This document shows positions 21,183 through 64,000 of a stretch of 64,000 nt of DNA, one piece after another. The DNA is taken from contig MU004236.1 of the NCBI GenBank assembly GCA_010405405.1, positions 2,052,070-2,116,069 of the forward strand, given 5' to 3'. Under the pieces are notes generated by a model. It was not told the origin of the DNA. It saw nothing but the letters and a program-made list of their open reading frames with translations, and ran no database searches. The position numbers were made by a program, and so were the translations under genes. Each line of letters opens with the position of its first letter. Within the stretch, counting starts at the first letter, position 1. The stretch comes from Microthyrium microscopicum. Taxonomy: Eukaryota > Ascomycota > Dothideomycetes > Microthyriales > Microthyriaceae.

Positions 21183-21900
21183 NNNNNNNNNNNNNNNNNN
21201 NNNNNNNNNNNNNNNNNNNNNNNNNNNNNNNNNNNNNNNNNNNNNNNNNNNNNNNNNNNNNNNNNNNNNNNNNNNNNNNNNNNNNNNNNNNNNNNNNNNN
21301 NNNNNNNNNNNNNNNNNNNNNNNNNNNNNNNNNNNNNNNNNNNNNNNNNNNNNNNNNNNNNNNNNNNNNNNNNNNNNNNNNNNNNNNNNNNNNNNNNNNN
21401 NNNNNNNNNNNNNNNNNNNNNNNNNNNNNNNNNNNNNNNNNNNNNNNNNNNNNNNNNNNNNNNNNNNNNNNNNNNNNNNNNNNNNNNNNNNNNNNNNNNN
21501 NNNNNNNNNNNNNNNNNNNNNNNNNNNNNNNNNNNNNNNNNNNNNNNNNNNNNNNNNNNNNNNNNNNNNNNNNNNNNNNNNNNNNNNNNNNNNNNNNNNN
21601 NNNNNNNNNNNNNNNNNNNNNNNNNNNNNNNNNNNNNNNNNNNNNNNNNNNNNNNNNNNNNNNNNNNNNNNNNNNNNNNNNNNNNNNNNNNNNNNNNNNN
21701 NNNNNNNNNNNNNNNNNNNNNNNNNNNNNNNNNNNNNNNNNNNNNNNNNNNNNNNNNNNNNNNNNNNNNNNNNNNNNNNNNNNNNNNNNNNNNNNNNNNN
21801 NNNNNNNNNNNNNNNNNNNNNNNNNNNNNNNNNNNNNNNNNNNNNNNNNNNNNNNNNNNNNNNNNNNNNNNNNNNNNNNNNNNNNNNNNNNNNNNNNNNN
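21183..21900. other. Assembly gap (718 N)
   Basis: A run of N occupies this interval. The sequence on either side is AT-rich repeat DNA but differs in texture (see 21901-22652), so the gap may join two different repeats. The true gap length is unknown. Confidence 0.99.
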
Positions 21901-25014: not shown

Positions 25015-26256
25015 TCATCTACACAAAAGCTCCTCAACCATTTCCGCAATAGCCAACGAACTAGTCAAACCCGGCGACTCGATCCCCAACAAATTAACAA
25101 AACCCTCGAAACCCTCTTCCTTCCTTATTATAAAGTCCTTGAAATTCTGGCCAGCTATAATTGCACTCGTCCTTGTCAACTTTGGCCGAATGCCCGTATA
25201 ATCCAAAGTAATAGCACTCTTGTCAATGGTAGGCAAGTACCTTGATATATCGGCCAACGCAGCTTCCAAATGCTCATCGCTCGCCGCATAATCCGTCGGC
25301 GAGTCCACCCATTGTATATCAGGTCCAAACCGTATCCTCCCTCCCAGATCCAATGTCAAATGTGTGCCCAAACCACCATGACCAGGCACAGGAGCCGGAT
25401 AGATAAGTGTGCTCGTCTTCGGCCTAGATAACGTATACGAGTAATACGTGCCTTTGGCATAGTAAGGCGTAATATGTCTATCCTCCGGCAAAATCGAATT
25501 CGACAACGGCACCGCATACAGACCAGCAGAATTGACAATCGTGTCCGCAGTAATACATGACTCTTCTCCACCGTCCGCTCCAGTTGCTGAGCTCTTTGTC
25601 CATATCTCCCAGCCGCCTGAGCCATTCTGCTTCGGGACAACTCTCGTTATCGCACTATTCAGCGCAGTAACGCCTCCCCGTTCTTCAAAATCACCAAGTA
25701 AATACTGCATCAGTGCATGACTGTCCACAATGCCCGTCGTCGGACTCTCCAAAATGCCTGCTGTAGCTTGAACATCCGGCTCCCTCCTCTTTCCCTCCTC
25801 CTTGCTCAGAAAGTGCGTCGGCACACCCACCTGTTTCGAGAAATCCAGGATTTTCTCCAACTCTTTGAACTCCGTATCATTTTGCGCAACGACCCATTTC
25901 CCCGTGTTCCGGTGCGGTATGCCCTGCTCTTTACATAGTTTGTATAGTTCCTGGCGCCCGCGGATACATAGTTTTGTCTTGAGAGAGTCGGCGCCGTAGT
26001 AGAGTGCTGCGTGGATAACCTCGGAGTTGCGGCTGCTTGTTTCTGTGCCTACGGCGTCATGCTTCTCGATGAGGACTGTTGAGGCGCCAGTGCGGCCTTG
26101 GAGTTGGCGGGCGGCGGCGATGCCGACTACGCCGGCGCCGATTACGGCGTGGGCGAAATCTGATTTTTGAGATAGAGTTGTTGAGAAGAGGCGCTGGATG
26201 GGTTTTGTTGTGGGTTGGTGTTGAAGACGCCAGGCGTTGCGGGTGATGGACCCCAT
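25015..26256 (-). CDS. L-2-hydroxyglutarate dehydrogenase-like FAD-dependent oxidoreductase, mitochondrial
   Basis: This is an intronless gene of 413 residues. Residues 1-30 are basic and hydroxylated without acidic residues, as in a mitochondrial presequence. A Rossmann dinucleotide motif GAGVVG lies at 40-45, with an acidic residue (E64) ending the second strand to bind the FAD ribose. The TSSRNSEVIHAALYY segment (73-87) matches the conserved SEVIHAGIYY region of the DAO-family L2HGDH branch, and ESPGLTSS near the C-terminus (393-400) is the family's second FAD-contact motif. The family oxidises L-2-hydroxyglutarate to 2-oxoglutarate, a metabolite-repair reaction. The start gives the expected full length. 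It is divergent from the secreted hydrolase, with 781 bp between start codons. Some fungal paralogues act on other 2-hydroxy acids, so the substrate is inferred. Confidence 0.88.
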   Translation of the reverse strand: MGSITRNAWRLQHQPTTKPIQRLFSTTLSQKSDFAHAVIGAGVVGIAAARQLQGRTGASTVLIEKHDAVGTETSSRNSEVIHAALYYGADSLKTKLCIRGRQELYKLCKEQGIPHRNTGKWVVAQNDTEFKELEKILDFSKQVGVPTHFLSKEEGKRREPDVQATAGILESPTTGIVDSHALMQYLLGDFEERGGVTALNSAITRVVPKQNGSGGWEIWTKSSATGADGGEESCITADTIVNSAGLYAVPLSNSILPEDRHITPYYAKGTYYSYTLSRPKTSTLIYPAPVPGHGGLGTHLTLDLGGRIRFGPDIQWVDSPTDYAASDEHLEAALADISRYLPTIDKSAITLDYTGIRPKLTRTSAIIAGQNFKDFIIRKEEGFEGFVNLLGIESPGLTSSLAIAEMVEELLCR

Positions 26257-27037
26257 TGTGGGGATGGTTCTTGTGATTTTCCTGGTCGAGTTGATGATTC
26301 TTCCTCAGTAGATTCTGTTAAGCGTCTGATCAAATTACATTGGGCTTCAATTTTTATTTTGAACGGTTATCGGACTTTGATCATGGAGAAAGTAATCGCA
26401 ACTGGGCCGGAGGTTGAAGTCGCGAAATGAACCTTGTTCGAAACAGACGTTGACGATCCTGATAATGCACGTTGACGTCTATCATCGAGTATGTTCACAT
26501 GGCAAGTAACTCAAAATACATTTTTGTTACTATCCATTGACTTGATGGCAAGAAGTAACATTTTTGGTTTATTCAAAATTGGTACATTCTACTTTGGTAA
26601 TATGTTCTACGTTGTCTAACCCGTACATTCTACAGGATATGTCAATGAGTGAAGTGGAGCAGGCAATGGACTCACCCTTATTGCCAATTGCTACACAGTA
26701 GCACTCAGATTTTGTAAACATTATTTCCAAAATTCACATTACTCTATTCTACCCATTGTACGAACACAGATTTGCTTATCGTATTTGGTTTCTGGTTGGA
26801 TCAGCAGAGAGCTGGCTGTTCACAATAGGAGCAGTATAGGGCCTTGAGTGCTCAACCTAGAGTATTAATCAACGTTAATTTACTAGAGCACCTATATGAC
26901 CTTTAGTCCATATGGTCCGAATCAGGACACTAAACGGCACTTCCGAAAAATGATTGCCATATCCAGTGAATTGATAAAAATGTCAAAACCAGCGTCTACA
27001 ACCTCAAGTCTGCTTGAATATATCAAAAAACCTCACA
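26257..27037. promoter_or_regulatory. Shared divergent intergenic region
   Basis: The stretch lies between the start codons of the minus-strand dehydrogenase and the plus-strand secreted hydrolase, so it must hold both promoters. It has ordinary base composition. GTACATTCTAC occurs twice (near 26581 and 26623). No recognised factor site, RNA gene or additional coding sequence was found. Confidence 0.5.
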
Positions 27038-28322
27038 ATGCGCAGCACTACCCTGCTAGCCGTTTGGCTGAGCCCAGTCGTGGTGACTGCTATGCCACAA
27101 GCTGATCCAAAAAGCGGTATGTCTTCCTGGGCCGCTTCATACTTTCCCAACGCTCGATCTGGTCACAATGCGTGGCTTGATCCGCAGAATGACAAGACAT
27201 GTAGTATGACGCTCGAACTGACAATCTCACAGGCTGTCCACCGCTAAAAAGCTCCACTCCATCCCTAATCAAGCCAGCAAATTGTCCAGATCCCAAGACA
27301 ATTCCCAACGCGAAAGGCACACTCAAAGACAATGAATGTCTCGTCGGCGGTATCATGGGCGTGTGTCACTCCACCGTCTCTGACAACTTACCGTCAACTA
27401 AAACATGAATAGGGCGACTTCTTCAACCCATGCTATGCGCCTGACTTGCGCAACGGCCTAGGACCAGGCTCAGGCGGCCGTTCAGTGTCGGACTGGTCTG
27501 GTGGCTCCGGCCCTCACAAAGCGCAATTCTTCACAGATCCCAGCCTGCCGAATCATACTATCTATGCACCGAAGACACCCGTTACAGGGAAGAAACTCCC
27601 ACTACTGGTCTGGGCGAACGGCGCGTGTGAGAGTGATGGCTCGGCGTTCTCAAATTTCCTTACGGAGATTGCGAGCCATGGATTTATTGTCCTGGCGAAT
27701 GGAAAGCCGTCAAAGGTCTGGGGAAAGGGTGGTTTCTCGATGCCAGGTGGTGAGAAGTCTAGGGCGGCACAGTTGACTAAGAGCATAGACTGGGCAGAGA
27801 AAGGAGGAGCTGCAAAATTTGGGGAAATCGATATGAGTAACGTCGCCGTCGCGGGACAGAGCTGTGGTGGTGTAGAAGCATATTCGGCGAGTGTATATGA
27901 GCCAAGAGTGAAGTTGATTGGCATATTCAACACCGGTGTTATTGATCCTGCCAGACGATGGATGCTGAAGGATATCAAGCAGCCAATTGGATACTTTTAT
28001 GGAGGCAAGGTGGACTTTTCGGAGAGCTTTGTATGTTACGTCTAAACGGATGTTATGTGGTACATTGCTAACTTTGTGGTAGATCACGCAAGATTTTAGA
28101 GAGATACCGGCGAGTCTCCCGGCTATGATGTCGTCTTTGCCAGTTGGGCATGGAGGGACATTTTCGGAGGCGAATGGTGGGAAGTTTGGGAAGGCTGCGG
28201 TTGCTTTCTTCAAGTGGAATCTTCAGGGAGATGCTGCGTCGAAGGATTTGTACTTTAACAAGACGTCTGCTTTGTATAAGGATGGTTGGACGATTGATAC
28301 GGCGCACTGGACACAGAAGTAA
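27038..28322 (+). CDS. Secreted alpha/beta-hydrolase (dienelactone-hydrolase/PETase-like fold), 4 exons
   Basis: Exons are placed at 27038-27116, 27233-27360, 27413-28030 and 28083-28322, giving 354 residues. All junctions are GT-AG and keep one frame. Residues 1-18 form a signal peptide (basic start, LLAVWL core, TAMPQA cleavage region). A cysteine-containing N-terminal segment (C28, C43, C60, C76) precedes the hydrolase domain. The nucleophile elbow is GQSCGG with Ser219, Asp270 is a candidate acid, and His298 sits in VGHGGT, so a full catalytic triad is plausible. Similar secreted proteins occur widely in ascomycetes without a settled substrate; ester or polyester hydrolysis is an inference. 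Intron 2 uses a less usual GTGTGT donor. The gene ends 853 bp before a large transposon. Confidence 0.8.
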
Positions 28323-29175
28323 TGGAAAATACCCGTCGTAGCACATGATGCAGTTGTATAATGACGTCCTACCTTTTTTCGGCGAGGGTATTCTTGTTGC
28401 AAGTGCTGCATATTTACCTAAACACGTGTATTAATGCATATCATCCTATACTTGTCGTATGCGGTGGTGGGGCTGTGAAGCAAACCGTAAACTGTTTATA
28501 GCCCGGATTATAGTCGAGCGTCTGAGACTGCATGGTCAGCCAATGGGTAGAAAGAGGTTGATCCATGAGGAAGATTGTCTGAGCAGGATGGATCATACAC
28601 AATCTGTGGATGGAAATGATCAAAATATAGATGAGATGATGGAGTTCGTTGTGGAGGAGGACTGGAGAGGGAGATATTTGATAGGCAGGTGCCAGAAGGG
28701 CGGGTCGAGGATTGCTTACTGTGCTGGGCTCACAGGGCTAGTCAGCTCGAAATAGATCACAAATCAAAGATCAATGGGAGCCATGTGCAAATCTTACCTC
28801 TTTCAAACTGGTGTCCGCAAGAGCCTCTCCAGCTCTTTGGATCCTCCCGTTACCACTACCAAACCGTGCTAGACAATCTCGAAACATAGCGGGTCAAACA
28901 ACACTTGGAAGTAAGTCAGTAACTCAGTTCGACTTGGACGCCGGCACCTTCATTACTCCACGAAGATATATCTCCTACCTTGATCCGATACGCATTCAGC
29001 TCGCGAACTCGTCTATATCTTTACTGCTTTCAATTGGCCAATTCTACGTTCTAGGCGTGGCCCTTTTCCGGTCCTGTCCCTTTATGGACGCATCTTGAGG
29101 CTGAGTATCTGCAAGACTGCAACTGCCAATAAACGCATGGCCCAGCACAACTTGAATCTGGCCAGCCACCCTCCC
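28323..29175. other. Intergenic region before the 11.8-kb transposon
   Basis: The DNA has ordinary composition and no RIP. Short open frames exist (for example 28459-28755 +) but show no family resemblance, splice support or codon pattern convincing enough to call. The last three bases (CCC, 29173-29175) form the left copy of a presumed 3-bp target duplication. Confidence 0.5.
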
Positions 29176-29209
29176 CACTAGCGGATATCAGGGGCATTTC
29201 AAATCGTCC
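29176..29209 (+). repeat. Left terminal inverted repeat
   Basis: The 34-bp end begins CACTAGCGGATATC and ends AAATCGTCC. It matches the reverse complement of 40962-40995 at 32 of 34 positions. The two differences are A/G at position 15 and C/T at position 24, both transitions. Confidence 0.85.
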
Positions 29210-29219
29210 CAGGACGGCT

Positions 29220-29640
29220 TCAAATCCAGTAGCGTATTAGTATAGTTAAAATAAAGAATAGTAATAGATTTAGGACGTAGACTATATTTATAATTCGTTA
29301 TAGAACCTATGTTAAGACGATTAGCGTTAAGGACGTCTTAGCGTTATAAGTAGTATAAGCAAACTAACGTCTTAATATAGTTTATATAGAAAAGCGTATT
29401 AGTATAGTAGCCATATATAATAATTTATACTAAAAACGTAAAGCTAGTATATTATACTAAGATAGTTTAAACTAGAGATAATTAGTTAAGAAATATATTA
29501 ATAGTATACTATTCTAATAGTATCTATATAATATATTAACGTTTATAGTAAATACTATAGTAGGATGCTTACCTTATAAAGCGTCCTATAATTTAAGCGT
29601 CTTAGCAATTTTAGTATATTTAGGGCGTATTAGGTTAGTA
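29220..29640. repeat. Left subterminal repeat region
   Basis: Short motifs recur here: GCGTATTAGTATAGT appears near 29232 and again near 29396, and AGGACG/CGTCCT cores occur several times. AGCGTCCTATAAT at 29580-29592 is repeated inverted at the other end of the element (complement of 40910-40922). Clustered short subterminal repeats are typical transposase-binding sites of CACTA-type elements. Confidence 0.55.
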
Positions 29641-32600
29641 TAATTTAATTAAGAGGCTTAGCGTTAGTTTTGCGTCTATTCCTCTACCTTAAGATATAAT
29701 TATGACTTTACCTTAAAATCTTAAGCTACGTTAAATTAAATTTTATAACTTTAAAAAAATTTAATTTTACTTATTATGTCTACTAAGCTTACTACCCTTA
29801 ATGGCTAGAATAGCTAAAATAGCTAACCTACTCCTTTTACTAATAATCTGCCCTTCTCTACTAATATAGTGCCTACCGTCCTTTAGGCTACTACCTTTCC
29901 CTCCTTTTATACGCGTAATCTACGTATAACTATATTGCTATTAGCTATTATAAGTATAGTTCTTTCTAAAAGCTAGATTGTTTATTCTATTTATCTTTGT
30001 CTAATTATATCTAATTCTATAATTATATATTTATAACTTATTATTTTAAGTTGTATTTTAAAATTAGTATATAATGCTTCTAGTCTATCTATTATCTCTA
30101 AGTATAGCCTTATAGTAATTAGCATTACTACTAAGGTTTACTATATATATACTAAGTTTATATTATTCTTAATTAATGTATTACTTTCTACTAAATCTTC
30201 TTTCTAATTTTATTATACCTAATTAATATTAATAAGCCGTACTAACTAGTAGAGTAGAAAAATAAAGCTAAGCTTCGTAAATCCCTTACTATAAGTATAA
30301 CTAGCGCCTTTAGAGTAATAAAGAAGCGTAAGTATAATAATATTATATATAAAGATCTAGAGTCTACTACTACTACTACTTAAAAAGCTACTAAAGAAGC
30401 TACTAAAGCTATTACTACTACGCTAGATAATAAAGTACTTACTACTATTATTATTACTATTACTCTTACTACTAAGAAAGCGGCTACTATAACCCAAACT
30501 ACTATTACTAAGCTCTTAAAAGTTACTTAGAATAATTAGTCTCTAAAGTTAACTAGAGGGGCCTTTAAGATACTAAAGGTTAACTCTACGTCTTATATAA
30601 CTAAAAAGAAAATAGTTTTAAAGTAAGCTAAGCGCTTCTATTCCTTTATTTTTTATAATAACTAGTTTATAAAATAGGTTATAGAAAAGTTCTAGTCTAC
30701 TTTAAAGTATAGTATATAAAGATTAGCTTACGTATATATATATAATTTATATCTTAAAAATATATAGAATTTTAAGAACTATACTATTTTTAACTTTTAC
30801 GTAAATTATATACTATTTTAATATTCTATTTATTTTAATATTTATTATATATATATATATATCTATTTATTTAATAATCTATCTAATAATCTATCTACTT
30901 AGTTGTTAAATTTCTTATTAAATAAATAAATATATATATATATATAATAATTATTAAATTACTACTTTAATTATATAATTAAGATTATAAAACTATATAT
31001 TAATATAAAATAGACCTATATTATGAGCTATATAAAAGATTATATAGTTTTATAAGATCTTAGTTTATTTAATAATACTATTAAAACTTAACTTTAGTTA
31101 GACTACTCTTTTATATTCTTTTTATAGCTCTTTAACTTTATAAAAGAGTACTTAGACTTAGAAAAGTTCTCTAAGCTTAGAAAAGCTTAGTACTTAGATA
31201 TATTATAACTATTACTCTAAATTATATATATATACTAATACTATTATAGAATAGTTTATCTAGCTAAGTATTCTAATAATATATTAGCGCTAAGCTAAGC
31301 TTATAGCTAAAAAAGAGCCTACTAAAGTAAATTTAGCTTTAGTAAATATATCTAAGGACGCAATATTAGACTACTAGGATATTCTAGCGTATTAAAAAGA
31401 AATTTTTAACTTTCTTTACTTAAAAGATTTCTTCTAGCTTATAGTAATTACGTTAACTTCTACCTCTAAGAAGCTAGTTACTATCCTTAAGAGCGCTATT
31501 AAGCGCCTTATTAAGGTAGAGTTTAATTTTAATAGTTAGTATTTTTATTTAGTATTTATTAGTATAAAGTCTTATAAAGTTTTATAGAGTTTTTACTTAG
31601 AGTATATTTTTATAAAGTATATTTATATAATGTTTCTTATATTATTATTATTTTATTCTTATACTATTTTATACTTTCTTTATATAATTATTCCTATATT
31701 ATTATTATACTATTTTTATATAATTATTCTTATATTACTTTTAGTAGTATTATTTAGAGTTTCTTATTCCCTTAGAGTCCCTTTACGTCTTATTTCTTAC
31801 TTAGAGTTTTCTATAGCGTTTATTACTATAGGATATAAGACTATATAATTACGTAAACTTTATAATACTTCGTCGTCTCTAACCTATAGATCTACCTACT
31901 AATTATTAACTAGTAAGTTATGCTATACCTTAGGCTATTATTAATTACTTAGCTTATACTTGCTATATATCCTCTTAATAGGATTCCTTTATATACTAAC
32001 ATAATTAGTTATTCCTAAGTACTAGTTAGTATTAGTATTTAGGATCTATATACTAAGAGTTTTATAATACTATAATAGAGTTATAAGTAACTATAAGATA
32101 ATATAGTATTAATATTTCGTAAATAGATATTATATTTATAGGCTATATTATTCTTTACTAATATATTATATAGTTTCTACTTATACCTTATTAAGATAAC
32201 TAACCTTTAAGCTACCTAAATCGCTTTTATAGAGTCTAAAGGTATAGTTAGACTATATATATATTACTTATTAGCTTTATATTATAATACTATAAGTATA
32301 AAGCTTTAAGGCTTCTTAATACTAGCTACTTATTATAATATTAAATAATACTATCTTAAGTAGGAATAGTAAGAAGGCTTATACTACTAAGGATATAATA
32401 GTAGGTTTGTTAAGAACTCTATATTAACTAAATTAGTATTAAGAAAATTACTAACGCTAGTATAATTAATAGTTTATATTATTATTCTTAGCTTTAAGTA
32501 AAGGTAATTAGATAGGTACTAAATAGTTTAATACGTATTAATTAATTTACTAAGTAATAATATAAAATTAGATTATAAACTAGCTACTTCTTTACTTTAA

Positions 32601-34899
32601 TAATTACTTACTATTATACGCTATTACTATTATATACTATTCTAATTAGTAAGCTATAGCTAGCAAAATAGACATAGTATTTAGCTACTACTATATTATG
32701 AATTCTTTTATAGCCTTAACCCTTAGTTATAGCATAATCTATTTAGTTTACTATTATATTTAGTTTAGCGTTAAGTAATTATAAATATTAATTACTATAC
32801 CTAGTAGTATATTATAAAACTAATCTAAGTTAGTATATATATAGATATAGTTAAGATAATCTAAATTAACAATCTTGCTAAATAAGCTACTTAACTACGT
32901 AAAGAAAGGCTATAGTAAAGAAGACGAAGGAATTAGTATTATTTATAAAGATAATAGCTTAACTATATATTTGCTTACTTATAAGTAATTAATCAATATA
33001 AGAGTCTAGTTATAGGTTAGCTTAAAGGAAATAATTAAGTCTAGAGTATATATATTATCTAATAATAGCTTTTTAAGGTCGCGTTGCGTAACTCTAGCTT
33101 TCTAGCTACGCCTATTAATGTCTTTATTATGCCTTCTCTTTTTCTAACTCCCTACTACTGTTTAGGATATTATAAAGCTACGCTTAGACTATAATAAGGC
33201 TATAAAAGGCTAAAAATACTACCTTAAATTTATTAAATAGTAAGAGGGGCGTTTTAGTACTACTTAAATAGTAATTGCTTCTTCTAAATAATTATTTACT
33301 ACTTAGAATTAAATTTTTTCTCTAACTTTATCTTATACTTTGCCTTAAAACTCCTCTATATTTCTTTTTATTATTATCTATTTTTATCCTCTACTTCCTT
33401 TATCTACTTTTATTATCTACTTTTATTATCTATATTCTTACTATAACTACTAAGAACTAATCCTATAATATTATGTTTCTATTATTATTAGAGCAGTGCC
33501 GTTATTATAGTAGGTCGTAGTTGCTATAAGATAAAGTATAATAATAATAAGCATTAACCTTATTATTATTCTAAGTTTGCTCTAGTCGCTATAAATTTAG
33601 ATAATAATAAATAAGATAAAGTATAAGATAACTAGCTAATAGGTAGATATAATAAGCCTTTTAGTTCTATTAAACACGCTAAAGCTAAGTATAATATACC
33701 TACCGCTATACTTACTAACCTTAATTAATAAGTAAATTCAAAGCTTTAAGATAAGGTTTATCTTTTATCCATCACTATAGTTATATATTTCTTACTTATA
33801 TTTATTCTTATAGGTTACTAATAACCTTTAGGTTATAACTATATTACTTTAGAAATAGAACATTGCTATTATAAAGGAAGATACTTAAGATAATCTTGCT
33901 ACTATTATTACTAAATATATAGATAAGAATATTAATTAAGTTATTTAAGATATAGACCTTTAAGCATACCTTATAGACATAGCTTTATAAGCCATTAATT
34001 TTATAAAAAATATCCCTAACGAAGATATTAATCTAGATTATAATCTTACTATTAATCTTAACCTCCTATAGTTAAATATTTTAACTTCTATAACTATCTA
34101 AGTTTTAATAGATACTACTAAGTTTAATAGTCTACTAGTTCCTTTTAGTAAAGTATTACAAGTTTATAATCCTTTAGCTAACTATAAGAAAAAGAAATAT
34201 CTATTACTAACCTCTAATACTACTTCTAAACTATCTAATTATAAGCTTCTATCTAAATTAGAGTTAGTACTAGGATTATAATATAAAGATTATAGTATCT
34301 TGCGGACGTAGTATTAAAGCTTATAAGATATCTTTAAGATAATTAATACCTAAACCCTTCCTCTTATAGCGAAGCTTCTTAGCTTATTAAATATAATTAA
34401 GAACTACCTTAAAAACTACCTTTTGCGTATTTAGATTTGCTAATAGGAGGTTAACCTTAAGATTAAATAGCTTCTAATAATCTTAGCTATAGATCTAATT
34501 TAAGACATAAACGTATTTAAAAGTAACGTATTCTTCTTAAATATTCTTAAGCTAATTCGTAATGTTATTACTTTTTAGGTAATTAAAGACAAACTTTATA
34601 CTAATATAGCCTACTTTATTAATAATCTAAAGGAACTCTAAGAAAGCAACGCCTAGGCGTCGTTAATCTACGCCTTATCTAATAAATTTACTCTTATTTA
34701 GGATTTATAGCTTAACTACTTACAATCTATCTTTTTATTTAACTTTATATAGTTTTAATATAATAACAATAGCTACGTATAATGTCTTATAAGCCTAGAT
34801 TAGTATTTATATATTAGTTATATTATTACCTTTAATAAGGACTTCTAATTACATCGCAATTATAAAAGACCGCTAAGAAAAACCGTTATTAAGATATAA

Positions 34900-37500
34900 G
34901 AAGTTTAGCTTACTAGTATACTTAAAAAACGCTAAGGTTTAAGTATATAGTCTTTATCTCGTAAAGAAGTAGTAGTAAATACTAATTTTATAAGCGCCTT
35001 TAAGAAATTAGTATAAGATACTTTAATAAAATAGCCTATACTAAACTTAGGTTAAATACTAGTACCTTAATATAAAAATAATCTTTTTATTTAACTAGCT
35101 TATAGACTACTAGTACCTATAGCAAGTAATAAGTATATTCTTATTAAGAACTATATATTAATTATTCTTAAGACTAACGCTTTATATATATATCTTATAA
35201 TAGCTTTAACTCGCATCTTTATTATAAATTAAGAGTATAGTATTCCTTAGATTATACTAAACCTATCGCTTAATAAGCTAACTCTTACTACTCTATTTAT
35301 TTATTAAATATTTAACTCTACCTTAGGCCTTCGTTTACTATATTAGAGCTATCTACTATAAAGAAAAATTAAAATTAAGAAGTATAATTAATAAGCACTT
35401 AAGACTATATTTATTCTAGCTAGTAATAAAGACATAAACGTTATATCTATCTCTTTAATATATTTTATTAATAGATTTAGATTATATAGTATTATATATC
35501 GTTCCCTTATAGGTATCTATATATTTCTTACTAGTTTATTATATTATAAGCGTAATTATAACTTAAATATTATTCCCTATACTCTTAGTCCGTATAGTTA
35601 TTTAGAAGATTCTTTTATTAATATTATTAAAGAATACCTTTAGTTCTTATTTATTAGTAAGGTTAAGATTACTATTAATAAATATAAGGTCTACTTATAT
35701 ACCTATATCTACGTGTTTATTAGAGATATACCTTAATAATAAGCAAACTTAAGGATACTATTATAAAATACGAAACTAGGTTATTAATCTTATTAAATTA
35801 ATAAGAGTAAGCGCTCTTTCTTAAGGTTTAATACTACGACTTATAGTCGTTTTTATTTTAGTATTAAGCGAGTTTATAAAGCTATAACCAAACTTAATAG
35901 CATTAAGAAGAAGTAAGCGTTTAGCTCTACTACTAAATATAAAGTAAAGCTATACCTTCTATAACTTATTCTAAAATTAGATTTTGTCTTAGATTGCCCT
36001 TTAAATCTAGCTTATTCTAAGTTAGAAGAACTAATTAAGCAACTTTATATCCTATTTATTAAAGCTATTATTAAGCCTAATTAGATTAATACTTATAATA
36101 AAATTCTTTAAAGCTTTTTTTTACTATATAACTAGGGTCGTATTTAGAATCTAACTATATATATTAAAAGCTTTACGCTTTAGGAATATAATTATTAGTT
36201 AATTATTATTAGTATATTACTTCTACTTTAGCTTTAACCTAAATTTATTAAGCTACTTTACGCTAAAGCTATATAGATAGTATTTATTAATAAGATTTAG
36301 AAGCTTAATAGTAAATAAGCTAAGCTCTTTACTTAGATAAATTAAGATATAAATATCTTATACGATATATTAGTTCTAGCCTTTAAATCTATTACCTAAT
36401 TTAATTACTTATACCTAAATACTAATATTTAGCTTAAAGATTAAGCTACTTATATATAGTAAACACTATACGTACAATTTATGTTTTAAAAACTTTTTAA
36501 GTATAATTTATAAGTAGCTATAATTAATCCTTATATATAATAAGTATTATAAGCATAAAGCCACTATACTATTCTAAGTATAGTTACTATAGTAAGTATA
36601 TCATTACCTTTAGTTACTTTATCCTCTATACTATTATTAATGTCTATACTATTCCTAATATCTATACTATTACTAAATATAGCCTTATTTAGTATAAATA
36701 CTATTATTACTACTTTAGCTTATATAATTAAGCAGTATTATACTAATCTAAGCACTATTAATATTCTAGTAAGCTAAAAGAATACTTTAAAAGTAGTACT
36801 CTATTAAAACGTCCAAGCTTGTTTAAATATCTATATTAGTCTATACTATTCTATTCTTATTAATAAGTACTTAGGTAATAGTAACTATACTACTTTTAAT
36901 AAAGAGAAAGAGCATTATAACTTAAAGAATAATATTAAGAATACAAACTATTAGCTACCTTATTACGATCTTATAGTTTATAAGGCTAAAAGCTAAGGAA
37001 TTTAGTTTGCGCTTTTTAGAGCTTATATAAATATAACTTATAAGAAGAAGATCTTTCTTACTCTTAAGTATCTATAAATACGTCTTTTTAACCTATTTAC
37101 TTAGTTACTTCTAAAGTCTAACTAGAAAGTAGAAAATAATAATAATAAAAATACTTTAATAAATACTATAAAGGTTATAAATAATCCTATATACTTTATA
37201 CTTAAGGCTTACTCTAAAATCTTATAAAAGTTCTATACTAAAATACTATATTTCTCTATTAAGTCCGTAGATAGTAATCTTTATTTTAAAAATAAGTTTT
37301 GTAATATACTACTTAACGCTTATAATAGAGATTATAGAGAGTTAGCTATATTTCTTAAGTAATTAGCTATTACCTAGTTTAAAAGCATTTTATTTAATAA
37401 CCTATAAGTTTTAGTCCTAAATACCTATTATAATTACTAATATAAATTAGTAATACTTAATATTACTTAACGATAAAGATAGGTTAGTTTATTTACTATA
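34900..37500 (+). pseudogene. Degenerate transposase-like region of the DNA transposon
   Basis: The forward strand reads for long distances as protein-like sequence with RIP-type stops, and it keeps more CpA than the rest of the island. Around 35540-35760 a stretch reads as a conserved-looking S/T-L-x-P-x-x-S-x-L-E-D block. A polar segment containing R-D-I-P followed by glutamine codons comes next, then aromatic/cysteine-like positions. From memory this resembles the central part of large transposases of ascomycete KDZ/Tnp2-type elements. That would agree with the CACTA-like ends. The resemblance was judged by eye only, and no catalytic residues could be assigned. Confidence 0.35.
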
Positions 37501-40500
37501 GTTAAAAACGTATTAAATATATTAAAACTATAGCTATATATTAATTTACTAAGCTACTTACTATTAAAACTTAACGTATATTCCTATATATTAATAAGGT
37601 TATTATTTATAACTTAATTAAGGATTATATAATAGATTATAATATTCTTTAGATTACTAACTAGGTTAATCTAGTAGAACTCTAAATACTTTAGCTAAAG
37701 CATATCTACGTTATACTATTTAAGTATAGTAGTTACTAATAGGCTCTTTTAGCTATAAATAAAGCTAATAGCTTTATTTATATTAATTAGAATATTACCT
37801 TTATATAAGCTAAGCTCTAACGTTAAGTTATTACTTAACTATTTTATTCTAGTTTATTAGTTAGTACTATTTATTAACCTATTTCTTTACTTATCTTATA
37901 CCTACCTATCTAGCTTTATATAAGTCTAACTTAATCTAATTAACTACTTAATAAACTAGCTAAGCGTTATATTATATTATTTTCTATTTTTTTTATTTTA
38001 TTATATCTAAAAGTTTATTAAATATATCTACCTAATATTTTAGTATATAGGGTAGAAATAAAAGGTAGGTTATCCTAGCTATATATTTACTAGCATATAC
38101 TAACTCCTTATAGGTAAAGTTATTATTTAAAATCTAGTTCCTAGTTAGCTCTACTTTATTTCTTTATTATTATTAAGACTATATAGGACTATAAAAGGTT
38201 AGGCTTCTAGATTTATGCTATAGACTAGACTTAGACTAGATACCTTAGAATCTAATTATACCTAAATAATTCTCTACTTATTATTACTAGACGGACCCTA
38301 GAATAAGTAGTTAAGTTTTAGAATAAAAAATATTTAGTATATCTCTAAATATTTATAGCTCTATATAAATTCGTAACCTATCTATAATTAACCTCTATGC
38401 TTTATAATAAAATATTTATTACTAACCTATTATTTAATACGCTCTTAAACTTTATACTATTATCTATATATAATTTATAGAACCTCTCTATAACCTAGTA
38501 AACTATTATTAATACTCTTTATAGTAGTTAATAGGCTAATTAATATAATGCTTAAATACTTAATATTCTATATTTCTAATAACTAATAAGTAGTAGTATA
38601 ACTACTTCCTTTTAATCTTACGCAATATTTAAAGGAAAAAATTTAAAGGTTAGTAGCGTTTATTATTTATTTTACTTAAAGTTTAGTAATATCTAGATAT
38701 AAAGTATAAGCTTATAATCTTTATTATGCTATAAATATTATACTATATTAGCTAATATATACTTTACTATTAATTTATATATCTATTTCGTATTATAAAA
38801 GAACTAACCTTAATATAATCTACGCCTTAAATATACTAATAGTAATTACGTCTTACTCTATATCCTTAAATTCTAATATAGTACTTATAGTATTAAAGGT
38901 TAGTAGGCTTATTTATCTATCTATTTTTTATACGTTAGTAATATTTAAGTATAGAGTATGTATTTCTAAATACCTATTATACTAAGGCTATCCTACTATG
39001 TTTAGTATATACTTTCTTAATATTTATTAGTATTATAAAGCAAGATACTAACTTAAACATAATTAATAATATAACTTTTAAATTAGCCTACTTATATTAA
39101 TAGTGTCTTGCTGTATTGAAGTTAAGTACTTACGTCCTTTCTTTCTTATACCTATACGTACGTAGTCGCGTTATATGTCTTTCTCTATATTATATCTTAT
39201 ATAAAATATATACTAGTATTAGCGCTAACCTACTAGCAGCACTAGATTTATTAGCTTAAGTAGAAGACTATTATATACTATAAGATATCTAGCCTTTTTA
39301 TTTACCCTATCTACTCTATCTACTCTATTATATGCTCTTTTAATCTCCTTATATTAGGGGACTAAATAAGCCTATAGCAATTAAATAAGAGCGTACTACT
39401 TTTTAATCCCTATTATTAATATTACTAACGTTTTATATAATATAAAGATAATCCTATATACTAGTATATACTTTATAAACTAGAACGAAATATTATTATA
39501 TTATAATATACGTATATCTTTAGATCCTATTTATATCTAGTACGACTAGTACAATAAATTAGCTAATAATATAAAGAGAGGTAAAGACTACGCAAAAGGA
39601 GAGGAAGAACTAGCTTTATAAGTATAAAATATAGTAGTAAACGACTTTAAGGTATACATACTAACACTAAACTATTATATACTAATATAAATATAATAAG
39701 CAAGTATATTATTAAAAACGTTTAATAAGAGGCTAGTATAAAAGGAGGACGAGAGAAAGGTAAATATAAATATTAATTATAAAACTAGGGAGTCCTTAGG
39801 ATTATAGCTAACTATTAGTAGATTCTAATAACTAGATAAGATAGATATATAATTAACTAGTAAGAACTTAATATTATAATCTTTAATAATAAATACTAAT
39901 ATATTAAACTAAGATATTACGATATAAGCTATCTACTATATAAGTAATATATATTTAATGCTTATATATAAATTAATATAAGTTCGTATCCTTTTTAATA
40001 TAGTATTACTAATATTAAGGCTAACTAAGTAGTACTAAATTATTTATTTAGAAACTTACTACTAAGCTTCTAAAGTTTCTAAATACTTTATCCTTATAAA
40101 CTTTAAGGAATTTATAACGATTTACGATTTCTAAAGCTCCTTTTGCCTTAGAACCTTAATATCTAGTTAAAATAACGACCTACTAAGGGCTTCTTAACTA
40201 CGCTAGATTATACTATAGATTAAAAATAATCCATTAAGGCTTATAAAATATACTATCTTCTATCCTATAGTAACCTATATAAGGCTATATTTACTATTAT
40301 ATTATCTAATACCTCTTTATTTACTATATTCTTCCTTAAAAAGTTTATATAATTAATAACTTATTAATTATTAATTTAAAGAACGGCTAGGCTAATATCT
40401 ATCTATATTCTTAAATATTTAAGGTACGAAAGGACTTAGAAAATTAGAGATCTTATTTTAAGTAAAGGTTAATAAAGAGGTTAGTAATAGTAGAGTAGTA

Positions 40501-40729
40501 GAATAAAGGATTAGATCTAGGATCTTAATCTAGGACGATTAGATAGGTAGTAGAATAAGATCTAGATAAGATTATATTATACTATATTAAAAGACTTAAA
40601 AGTAGCTAGCCTATAATAAATTATACTTACTCTATACTACGCTTTCTCTAATTACGAACCTAGGCTACCTTAAAATAAAGAAAAAATCCTATCTACTTTA
40701 GGAAGCTATAAATAAGTAAACGTCCTAGT

Positions 40730-40925
40730 ATTAAGATATCCTAACTATAAGTCGTCCTATAGCCTTAAAATATTTTAATAGTATCTTATTTATTAATAAG
40801 ATAGCTTAACTTTAAGGCATTTTTATTTTATACTATTTATTATAAAGACGTATAAACCCTATAAATAATTTAAACGTACTATAATATCTACCATAAGGTA
40901 TTATAGGACGCTATTAATTTTGAAT
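40730..40925. repeat. Right subterminal repeat region
   Basis: The region contains inverted partners of left-end motifs: ATTATAGGACGCT at 40910-40922 is the exact 13-bp complement of 29580-29592, and a TCGTCCTATAG copy lies near 40752. It supports the two ends belonging to one element. Confidence 0.5.
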
Positions 40926-40961
40926 TAGTAGCTAGAAAAAACGCGTCATAGCACGGTCACA

Positions 40962-40995
40962 GGACGATTTAAAATGCCCCCGATATCCGCTAGTG
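40962..40995 (-). repeat. Right terminal inverted repeat
   Basis: This is the reverse-complement partner of 29176-29209. It ends with GATATCCGCTAGTG immediately before the flanking CCC. It still contains CpG-rich, non-RIPped sequence. Confidence 0.85.
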
Positions 40996-40998
40996 CCC

Positions 40999-45336: not shown

Positions 45337-47439
45337 ATGCCACCACTCACTCCAAAGGCTACGCCTCGTAGAACTGCAACTAATAGTTCGTCTATGAGCC
45401 GTAAACCTGAGCTGAGCCGCGTCCCAACTGCAAAGAAGCCACGAGCCCGACCACCGCGAAGTTTTCGTGACAAAATCGGATTCATCCATGGCGCGCTACC
45501 CACCTACTCTGGCCCATATGCAGTAAGTCGCACATATCAATTCCGTATTTAGTCTCCCTAACTAAATATCCAGGTTGGCATAATGGAGCTAGAGATCCCC
45601 GTCACCAATCCTCGAACATTCTATACCCATCCATCCACAGAAGACACCATCCGTCTCGAAACCGTCCACCTAGCACTTTACTACCCCGCCGCCATAGGAA
45701 CTGGCCGAGGAGAGGATCCCGCCGGCCACAAAAAGTGGTCGCGGCAGACTTGGCTTCCACGTCCGCGGTCTCAAGTTGCGAAGGGCTATGGGAAGTTTGC
45801 GGGCGTTGGGGCGGCGGGCATTCCCTGGTTTTTGTTAACGACTTGGTTTACGAAGCTGCCAGCGTGGAGAAATGCTAGGTTGGCAAAGTATTGGCCGCCG
45901 CCACAGGACGTCAAAGGAGAAGAAACGGAAGGGAACGAACGGGGAAAGTGGCATATGGAAGGCGAGGCACCACCCGGGGCGCAAGGGAGGCCGACGTTTC
46001 CGACGATGATATTTAGTCATGGGTTGGGTGGGAGTAAGACGGCGTATTCTTCTCTTTGCGGCGAGGTCAGTGTGTTCTCACTATCGAGTTAATGGACATT
46101 TGCTGACTGTTTCTAGTTTGCTAGTTATGGTTTTGTCGTGGCCGCTATAGAACATCGAGATGGTTCTGGGGCTAGGTCTTTTGTGAATCGTCCAGAAGAT
46201 CTCAAAAGCGGAGAAGAAACGGATCGTTCGGCTGAGTCTGGTAGTAGTGCTGCTGATTCAGAGGAAATTCCTGTGGTAGGCAAATGGGGTTCTCATCTTG
46301 AAGCATTAAGCTAATAGTCATCAAGGATTATATCTTTCCACCTGGTGAGAGCCATGAGCTGTTATTTTAGATAAGTTGCTGACCTTGATAGACAATCCTT
46401 ACGATACCTCTCCCCTGAACGATAAAGGCTTTGACACAAAACTTCGAAGCGCTCAATTACGCATGCGACTAGCAGAGATACACGAGACCTTCAAAGTACT
46501 ACAAGACATATGTGAAGGTAGAGGTCAAAGTGTTGAAGAGCGAAACTTGAGATGTAAGGGAGGAATAGGCGCCAGTTCCAGAGGGTTGGAGGGCGTAAGA
46601 TGGGAGGATTGGAAGAATGCGTTCTATCTCGACAACATCACACAGCTAGGTCACTCATTTGGTGCTGCCACTACCATTGAAGTGTTGCGACAAACTTCGC
46701 GATTCCCATACATAGGACAAGGCGTCATCTATGATATCTGGGCGTGAGTATAGACTGCAATCAACTCTTCTCAGCTGTTCTAACATCTCCCAGAGCTCCC
46801 GTCATCCAGTCAGGTCAGAATCGAGCAAAAGTCAGTCGTCCGCTGCTAGCAATCAACTCAGAAGCTTTCATGTACTGGCAGCAAAACTTTGACGTGGTCA
46901 CCAATCTACTTGAGGAGGCCAAATCTCAAAAACAGCCAGCCTGGTCGCTGACAGTAAGAGGCTCTGTTCACATTTCGCAGTCGGACTTTTCAGTTCTCTA
47001 TCCGCACCTATGCGCCATGATTTTTGGGATGACAGCGAATCCAAAGCGAGCTATCGACTTGAATATCGGGGCAACGTTGGAATTTCTCAAGCTAATAAGG
47101 AGTGAACGCTCACTTATTCTACGAAGAACTATGGTCGACGAAGGTCTATTAAGCGTAGGAGTTATCGACGAGCTGCCCACCGAGCACCGACCGGTCGCGG
47201 ATAAACACTTGGCAATTAAACTCGAGCTTCCTCGCCAACTGGGTAGCAGGGCTATTCCGAAGCTGCAGACCAAGATGAAGCAGTTGGGTAAGCATGATAT
47301 TCAGCCTAGCGATGAAGTCTGGGCGCATCTCGTAACGACTTGGGACGAGATGCAATCATGGGGATGTGATGCCGCCACATCGCCAGTCCAAGAGTTTGCT
47401 CACAAAGCCGAGGCCAGGCAGAAACAAATCCTGGAGTGA
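45337..47439 (+). CDS. Platelet-activating factor acetylhydrolase-family lipase, 6 exons
   Basis: Exons are 45337-45522, 45574-46065, 46117-46275, 46326-46344, 46392-46743 and 46794-47439, giving 617 residues. The fourth exon is only 19 nt. Skipping it breaks the family motif D-Y-I-F-P-P-D-N-P-Y-D, which the chosen splicing restores. Family landmarks are FSHGLGG (209-215, oxyanion region), YGFVVAAIEHRDGS (about 230-243), the nucleophile elbow GHSFG with Ser374, and a late histidine (His462 in GSVHISQSDF). PAF-acetylhydrolases remove the sn-2 acetyl or short oxidised acyl group from phospholipids. The basic N-terminus (about 50 residues) has no signal peptide, so the enzyme is probably intracellular. 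The gene converges with the Maf gene, with only 63 bp between their stop codons. Confidence 0.88.
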
Positions 47440-61556: not shown

Positions 61557-64000
61557 GAAGCGATGTAATTATAGTAGATAAGAGATTACATGCTAAGTAT
61601 AATATCTTATTACTAGTTTATATACTTACTCTTATTTATCCTCTTAGGGACGTAGGTTTAATATTGTACTAGTAAACTCTATATCTTAATTTATATATAG
61701 AGACTTTTATAAAGTTATAGTGATAGTTAGGTAGATACTTAGGATTATGCTACTCTTAAGGATACTATAGTAATCTTAATAATAAGTAAACTAATGTCTA
61801 TATATTTAGTAAACTACTTATTAAGTATAGGGTATATTTTATCTCTATATATAAATATTATTAGTAGTTCTACCTATTTATAAGTATAATATAATAAGTA
61901 TAAATAGAGCTACTATTCTTAGGAAAATAGATTACTCTAATAATAAGAATTAATAAAGAGAGTTAAAATTTTTTACTATAAATAGGCTTAATTTATCTAA
62001 TATAATACTATTTATTACTATTAATAAATAAGCTAAGTAAAGAGCTAGGTATTCCTTAATTAGGAAAATAGCTATAAATATACTACTTAGGAACTTTAGA
62101 ATTAAGAGTATATATTCTTCTTTAAACTTTATTATTATATAACGTTAATTTTACTCTTTATTAATTACTATATTTACTTAATTATCCTCTAAATAAACTT
62201 TAATCCTCTCTACTAAAACTACTACTCTTAAGAATATTTCTACTACTATAATTAAAATACTTTTAAATAGTTAACTAGTAGAAGTAGTTACTTAGACTAA
62301 AGAAGATATATTAAATATAGGCTCTACGTCCTTTTAACCTTCTTTTTATAAAAATATTAAGATTTATAATAATATTATTATAGAGAATAGCTAAGAAACT
62401 TTAGGCTTTACGTCTATTATTTTAGCTACTACCTATATATTTAGTACTAAAGGTTTAGGCGTAATACTCTAAATATAACTTCCTAGTAGTTAAATAACTA
62501 CTATATTACTATTAAGTATTATTAAGAATATATTTAATAATAAGCATTTCTAAGTAAATTAAGGCTAGGCTATTATAAATTCTAAAGAGAAAAAAGTAGT
62601 AAAAAAAGTAGCTAATAAGCTATAATACTAAAAAAATTATAATAAGAAAGTAAGGAAGGTAATAAAAGCTATACTTTAGGGTAAAAAACCCTTTAAACTA
62701 TATAAGAAGTATTAGTCTCTTAAGTATTAGATAATAAGATATACCTTACTTAAGCTTAGTTATAAAGAGAGGAACGTTTATTATATTATATATAAGGCGT
62801 TAAAAAAGAAGAGGAAGGCTACTATCTTATTATAAAGAGTTTTAAAAAAGGCTTCTAACTTAAAAGAAGCCCTAGTATAAGCTAGAGCTAAAAAAAAAAG
62901 ATTATTTTAGAATCTTATAAGGGCTTATATAGCTAGAAGTTAATATAACTTCTAAAGCCTATTAAAATAGACTTTTAGACTACTTAGTAAGGTATCCTTA
63001 GATATATCTTAAGACTTAAGATAGATAAAGATAGATAAAAGCTATTTTTTCCTATAGCTAGTTATTATATAAATAATAATATTAAAAAAGTAATACTTAA
63101 AATAGGTAAGGTTATTACTAAAGAAGTTAACTAAGTCTTCTACTTTAATAGGCTAAAGAATTTAGTTATTAACCTAAATTTAAAGGCTATAATTAATTAC
63201 CTTATAACGTTAGAGCTACTTATTTCTCTAGATTTAGGTAGTAAATTATTTTTAGTCTATTCTTAGATTTTTAAAATAAATAACCTAGTTATATTCTTTA
63301 CTACTACTATTTATAGCTTTAAGGTAGTAGCTCTTATAGCTAGTTTTATAAAATTTAAAGTCTTCTAAGAATAGAGCCTTAGGTTTTAGCTTAGATATAA
63401 GTATACTATAATAATTAAAGGAAATTATTATATTATTATTTTTAATAAAGCGCTAAGAGTTTCTAAATTTTTGTTTAGTATTAATATTTTTAGAAAAAAT
63501 AAGAAAAAGCTTTTATTTAGGATAGAAAATAATAAGCTTACTTAATATCTAGTATATTATACTATAAAGAAAATAGATAATTATTATCTTATAGCGTATA
63601 GAAATCTAATATTAGTATCTATTCTTTAAAGTAATATCTCTAACTTAGGTAAGCTTACTTAGTATAAGTCTAATATTAATATCTTATATATAACTAGTTA
63701 TTTAAATAAATAGTTTTAATATAAGTATTCTTAATATATCTTCTATAACTAATTCTACTTATTAAGATAATTTATATATATATATAATAACTAAAAAGAT
63801 TAATATTATACTATTATAAGAAACTTAGCTTACTCCTAAAGTAATTAATAAGTTTTATATAAAGTTCCTTCTATTTAGGATTAAGGGCTTAAAGCTTAAT
63901 AGAGTAAATAGTAGAATTACTATTATAATAAATACTTATATATATACCTAGTCTCTAGACCTAGATACTATAATATTTAATAAGTTAGCTAAAAACCTTT
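61557..64000. repeat. RIP-degraded AT-rich repeat island 3 (left edge)
   Basis: Composition switches sharply just after CACGAAGCGATG (about 61562) to TpA-rich DNA lacking CpA. The first bases of the island, TGTAATTATAGTAG, could be the start of a long terminal repeat, because such repeats usually begin TG. No second copy is in view, so this stays an inference. The island reads in places like former coding sequence but is broken throughout. It runs off the right edge. Confidence 0.7.

Follow-up and report, generated by a model that had tools for sequence, protein, structure and literature searches.

A probable CACTA-like DNA transposon within a RIP-mutated island of Microthyrium microscopicum

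An island of RIP-mutated DNA in the dothideomycete Microthyrium microscopicum raises the question of whether it is a complete transposon and, if so, of which kind. The island was studied in a window of 64,000 nucleotides, which is the whole stretch of DNA that was analysed (contig MU004236.1, positions 2,052,070 to 2,116,069). The element under discussion occupies positions 29176..40995 of this window (11,820 bp), and its interior is RIP-mutated. A first-pass annotation, made from the sequence, described it as a complete CACTA-like DNA transposon, with the superfamily inferred. The termini, the remains of coding sequence and the likeness to published elements are considered here in turn.

Termini, target site and subterminal motifs

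The element is framed by two terminal inverted repeats (TIRs) of 34 bp, the left at 29176..29209 on the plus strand and the right at 40962..40995 on the minus strand. They are identical at 32 of 34 positions, and both the coordinates and the identity given by the first-pass annotation were reproduced. The outer 14 bp, CACTAGCGGATATC, are the same at both ends. If equal base frequencies are assumed, the probability of such a match by chance is about 2e-17 for a single pair of positions and about 4e-8 for all position pairs in the 64-kb window. The exact 14-mer occurs in the window at these two ends only, and with up to three mismatches it is matched five times, against 4.7 expected. Of 198 inverted pairs, the 25 listed include no inner TIR pair of comparable quality. 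Searched as exact patterns, the outer 24 and 19 bases of the TIR are absent from viral_contigs and genome_contigs, and the 14-mer was not found in the research-paper texts searched. The element ends in CACTA...TAGTG, which is the CAC..GTG form of fungal EnSpm elements. An AT-rich inverted repeat of 59 bp also lies inside the element at 30831-30961 (86% complementary, 13-bp spacer), to the left of the long coding relic, and is most likely a product of RIP or of (TA)n.

The proposal that the island is a RIP island is borne out by base composition and dinucleotide ratios, which reveal a very strong mutation of the interior. The GC content there is 0.227, with TpA/ApT of 1.63 and (CpA+TpG)/(ApC+GpT) of 0.14, against 0.48, 0.68-0.75 and 1.26-1.34, respectively, in the GC-normal flanks. 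CpA and TpG each stand at 0.14 of expectation. The island had been called bounded to the base by the inverted repeats, which is correct for the TIRs but not for RIP, whose traces begin at an inward distance of approximately 52 bp from the left end and 75 bp from the right one. The left terminus without RIP mutation (29176..29229) keeps 7 CA/TG in 54 bp and the right one (40920..40995) keeps 7 in 76 bp; from the interior rate, 1.4 would be expected in place of these 14 dinucleotides (p 4e-10). The flanks seem RIP-free, with 14 CA/TG per 100 bp. As RIP halts at this distance inside each end, the termini are intact.

RIPped islands are frequent in the window. The left one extends over 1-24.4 kb and contains an assembly gap (718 N at 21183-21900), and a third begins abruptly at about 61.6 kb and continues past the window end at 64000. 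Two host ORFs, at 27413-28043 and 46735-47436, flank the element on either side at a distance of about 19 kb from each other, and each matches a separate part of the profile of the PAF acetylhydrolase family (96-132 and 262-349). About 3 kb to the left of the element, an FAD-dependent oxidoreductase ORF at 25015-26304 looks intact (DAO family, E 6e-62).

The trinucleotide CCC stands flush with the outer ends of both TIRs, at 29173..29175 on the left and 40996..40998 on the right, and is a possible target-site duplication (TSD). The repeat reported on both flanks is therefore present, but its value as a 3-bp duplication suffers from its context: because the left flank, CACCCTCCC, is C-rich, the 3-bp match is weak evidence of a TSD, and it may be a chance match.

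Arrays of short motifs in the subterminal regions are typical of plant CACTA elements. Here, the innermost TIR bases, CGTCC (GGACG), are present again on both sides and in both orientations. The left subterminal region (29205..29882) contains CGTCC at 29205 and AGGACG at 29211+, 29272+, 29330+, 29582- and 29877-; the right one (40532..40966) contains AGGACG at 40532+, 40721-, 40753-, 40905+ and 40961+. The pentamer, counted in both orientations, occurs eight times in the two 700-bp subterminal stretches (1.4 kb), five times in the 9,420-bp middle and four times in the remaining RIPped DNA of the window, which amounts to 26.8 kb including 718 N. Of 29 distinct TIR 5-mers, CGTCC is the one with a strong subterminal excess (p 2.4e-6), the next reaching 0.02. 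When k-mers were searched without a preset motif, the observed value was reached by 6 of 300 block shuffles for 6-mers and by 2 of 300 for 7-mers. In 32 overlapping control segments of the neighbouring RIPped island, the best 6-mer had p 4.0e-8 versus 8.4e-8 in the element, and the best 7-mer p was nearly equal to that of the element. The test restricted to TIR 5-mers is the fairer one, because the TIR fixes the motif. By the excess of CGTCC, the element has the subterminal repeats of a CACTA transposon, with the all-k-mer control being weaker. In addition, a 13-bp motif, AGCGTCCTATAAT, lies at 29580-29592 and has an exact inverted partner at 40900-40912. The motif had been noticed earlier and is real, with its left position correct; its right partner had been placed at 40910-40922, which is 10 bp off.

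Coding relics and the nature of the long gene

The element contains no ORF that reaches 80 aa. A 3-base periodicity survives in two zones, at about 29.6-31.1 kb and 33.4-37.7 kb. The second of these corresponds to a long coding relic on the plus strand (33400..37699), probably of a transposase gene, which is marked by a constant 3-base phase and by the fewest stops. A single phase over its 4.3 kb yields a chi2 of 68 on 6 df, the maximum in 500 block shuffles being 36.5, and stop codons make up 8.0% of the plus frame versus 9.6-17.2% in the other five frames. Signals of this kind also occur elsewhere in the window, as the left island reaches a chi2 of 124 in the 4.3-kb stretch from 4501 (the top of 12 stretches), which is probably another dead transposable-element gene. 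When the long frame was compared with the window by tblastn, at least 40 matches were obtained, and those listed are all within the element.

A second relic, at 29500..30450, is recognized by its periodicity and is probably on the minus strand, with strand and limits uncertain. At 29.85-30.15 kb the first codon position is more gene-like on the minus strand, and at 30.15-30.8 kb the strand is uncertain because a triplet repeat interferes. A codon model derived from host exons RIPped in silico, one of six of which was out of frame, did not have the power to assign the strand. If the left relic is on the minus strand, the two genes are divergent, which is the probable arrangement.

The identity of the long gene was sought in databases of families and structures. 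A Pfam search of the six frames, with X at stops and E up to 5, found no family at all, and ten read-through stretches matched no transposase family. The matches of read-through stretches to CBM_4_9 (E 0.019), GGA_N-GAT (0.36) and DSBA (1.4) fell below the cut-offs and were taken as chance. The PDB sequence search gave one unrelated chain (E 0.91), and an AlphaFold model of one read-through stretch, made without an alignment, had a pLDDT of 40 and was uninformative.

When read, the long plus frame resembles what we take to be a fungal CMC/EnSpm-type transposase. A putative fungal CMC transposase sequence of 269 aa, written down after the translation of the window had been read, served as the query of a RIP-aware alignment to three RIPped stretches, read in 18 frames in all; the alignment covered this CMC query alone. 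The query scored 42.6 in the long plus frame and 16.2 in the next frame, whereas 100 shuffles gave at most 17.2 and the reversed query 13.7. With a codon table in which all exons were in frame, the score was 44.8, the next frame gave 15.2 and 60 shuffles gave at most 17.1. Residues 1-84 of the query, in which no string of the motif search occurs, scored 35.1 on their own versus at most 15.4.

Five candidate fungal motifs all rank top among about 75,000 positions and lie in order in the long plus frame (34609, 35722, 35761, 35989 and 36115), with strings that were partly shaped by the frame already read and a codon table in which one of six exons was out of frame. With a codon table that included an out-of-frame exon, three overlapping forms of a plant TNP2 motif all missed the site. 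The putative transposase strings themselves matched no Pfam transposase family and had no relative in viral_contigs or genome_contigs. Candidate D-x-P, C(2)C and H(3)H motifs can be placed tentatively at 35722..35856 on the plus strand, where C(2)C is now Y..Y (35782-35793) and H(3)H is now Y...Y (35842-35856). TAT codons stand at the expected places, which is what RIP would make of codons for Cys and His. The distance between the first two candidate acidic residues is 85, and a published account of Transposase_21 puts the corresponding spacing at 80. A near-strict form of the published motif I has no matches, and the generic form of C(2)C/H(3)H fits every frame and was therefore discarded as a test. 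The alignment gives a strong lead to a transposase of the CMC/EnSpm type rather than a database-confirmed identity.

Known relatives and rival explanations

Plant CACTA/Spm elements have a 3-bp TSD, short repeated motifs inside both ends and a long transposase gene. The element of M. microscopicum is like them in its CACTA TIR (the CACTA core and the sizes of such elements being described in the literature), in the short motifs repeated inside its ends and in its relic of a long, probable transposase gene. It is unlike them in that the subterminal motif is a different one and in that the plant TNP2 motif did not find the gene.

A closer relative may be found among ascomycetes. Sly1-1 of Neurospora crassa is described as a CMC transposon of 11,534 bp that carries two genes, one for a transposase and the other without known function (PMC4592977). 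The same source states that the two-gene arrangement is conserved, with divergently transcribed homologues in Chaetomium globosum, and describes Sly1-3 and Sly1-4 as RIPped elements of about 12 kb without identified ORFs and with near-identical TIR pairs (PMC4592977). The present element is like Sly1 in its ascomycete host, its length (11,820 vs 11,534 bp), its ORF-less RIPped state and its probable two-gene layout; this is a likeness of size, probable layout and fate, and the layout here is read from RIP-wrecked DNA. There are two coding zones, with the plus strand favoured for the long one and the minus strand no more than probable for the short one. The suggestion that the element is large enough for extra genes is tempered by Sly1-1, which has this size with its two genes. 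In fungal EnSpm families, 5′-CAC..GTG-3′ ends and 3-bp TSDs are reported (Kojima 2025, PMC12730594). The element shares these ends and possibly the 3-bp direct repeat, and it is unlike the three rust-fungus EnSpm families with a TET/JBP gene of that report, as Pfam found no TET/JBP match here.

On these grounds the element is held, with a probability of roughly 0.78, to be a once-autonomous CACTA/EnSpm (CMC) cut-and-paste DNA transposon, most like the Neurospora Sly family. A CACTA-like transposon is the best reading because of the termini, the flush 3-bp repeat, the subterminal motif of the TIR, the 4.3-kb relic and its match to the putative transposase query. The superfamily named by the first-pass annotation is partly supported, as far as the ends, the subterminal repeats and the relic matching the putative CMC query are concerned; neither Pfam nor PDB names a transposase, and CCC is weak.

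Other explanations account for part of the same observations. As the ends read CACTAG...CTAGTG, the palindromes TA, CTAG, ACTAGT and CACTAGTG also fit as duplications, and the element could belong to another TIR superfamily (ESTA, Tc1/mariner or hAT-like) with CACTA being partly target DNA, which is unlikely. The left end, ...CCCACTAGCGG, and the right end, CCGCTAGTGCCC, read equally well with a duplication of TA or CTAG, and TA occurs at both ends, inside the longer perfect CACTA repeat. With a TA target, the ends would start GCGGATATC after TA. Any such palindrome requires that CAC/GTG stand beside the duplication by chance and leaves the flush CCC unexplained, and a gene of about 4.3 kb in a total of 11.8 kb would be large for Tc1/mariner elements. 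ESTA elements, which are EnSpm-like members of the CMCT clade with TA TSDs, are known in fungi, but with a TA target the ends here would not begin with CA, and the CA..TG ends common to most CMCT elements would be forfeited (PMC12730594). The CACTA reading is favoured because the ends then begin with CA, as in most of these elements, and because CAC..GTG ends are combined with a 3-bp TSD in published fungal EnSpm elements.

It is also improbable, though conceivable, that CACTA ends enclose foreign material, that is, that the element is non-autonomous or nested and that its 4.3-kb gene comes from another transposon or from captured host genes. The coding relics are identified by no database (Pfam, PDB), and the second relic and the 3.2 kb to the right of the main gene are without assignment, which agrees with this idea. 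Conversely, the putative CMC transposase, the sole superfamily aligned, finds its match in the main frame, the 25 listed of 198 inverted pairs include no comparable inner TIRs, and the size agrees with Sly1-1. An inverted repeat brought by chance around an ordinary RIPped island, without any transposon, is hardly credible. The window is indeed rich in RIPped islands, but the TIR probability over all position pairs, the RIP edges within 52-75 bp of both outer ends and the subterminal motif shared with the TIR all speak against it.

History of the element and its significance

For the CACTA/EnSpm transposon favoured here, the following history may be proposed. The product of the plus-strand gene would have been a DDE transposase that had the C(2)C and H(3)H motifs and whose binding sites were the TIRs and the GGACG copies of the subterminal regions. 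Excision would have been followed by insertion through a 3-bp staggered cut at CCC. The element would then have been duplicated, whereupon RIP would have turned most CpA/TpG into TpA, and the genes would have been killed. As its ends are intact, the copy is in principle movable by the transposase of another copy.

The spared ends find a simple explanation in an edge effect of the homology search of RIP. In a less likely course of events, RIP would have struck the copy at another place, and the transposase of a surviving copy would have brought it to this site later. A full-text search of the literature on RIP and transposon ends returned nothing on point.

This kind of element is already known in ascomycetes, since Sly1, a CACTA En/Spm class of 78,909 bp in Mycosphaerella graminicola and fungal CACTA-type proteins (transposases), the last reported in 2006, are published. 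The view that CACTA transposons are sparsely documented in ascomycetes was thus half right, Sly1 and the M. graminicola class being already in print, and the present element is a good example of an ordinary kind. With ends that are legible despite extreme RIP, it joins the published ascomycete CACTA/CMC elements as a well-bounded candidate. The sharp halt of RIP inside both ends poses a testable question, namely, whether it is an edge effect or the mark of a dead element moved in trans. If movement after RIP is true, autonomous CACTA elements would become non-autonomous through RIP and yet stay mobile, and mobility would outlast RIP.
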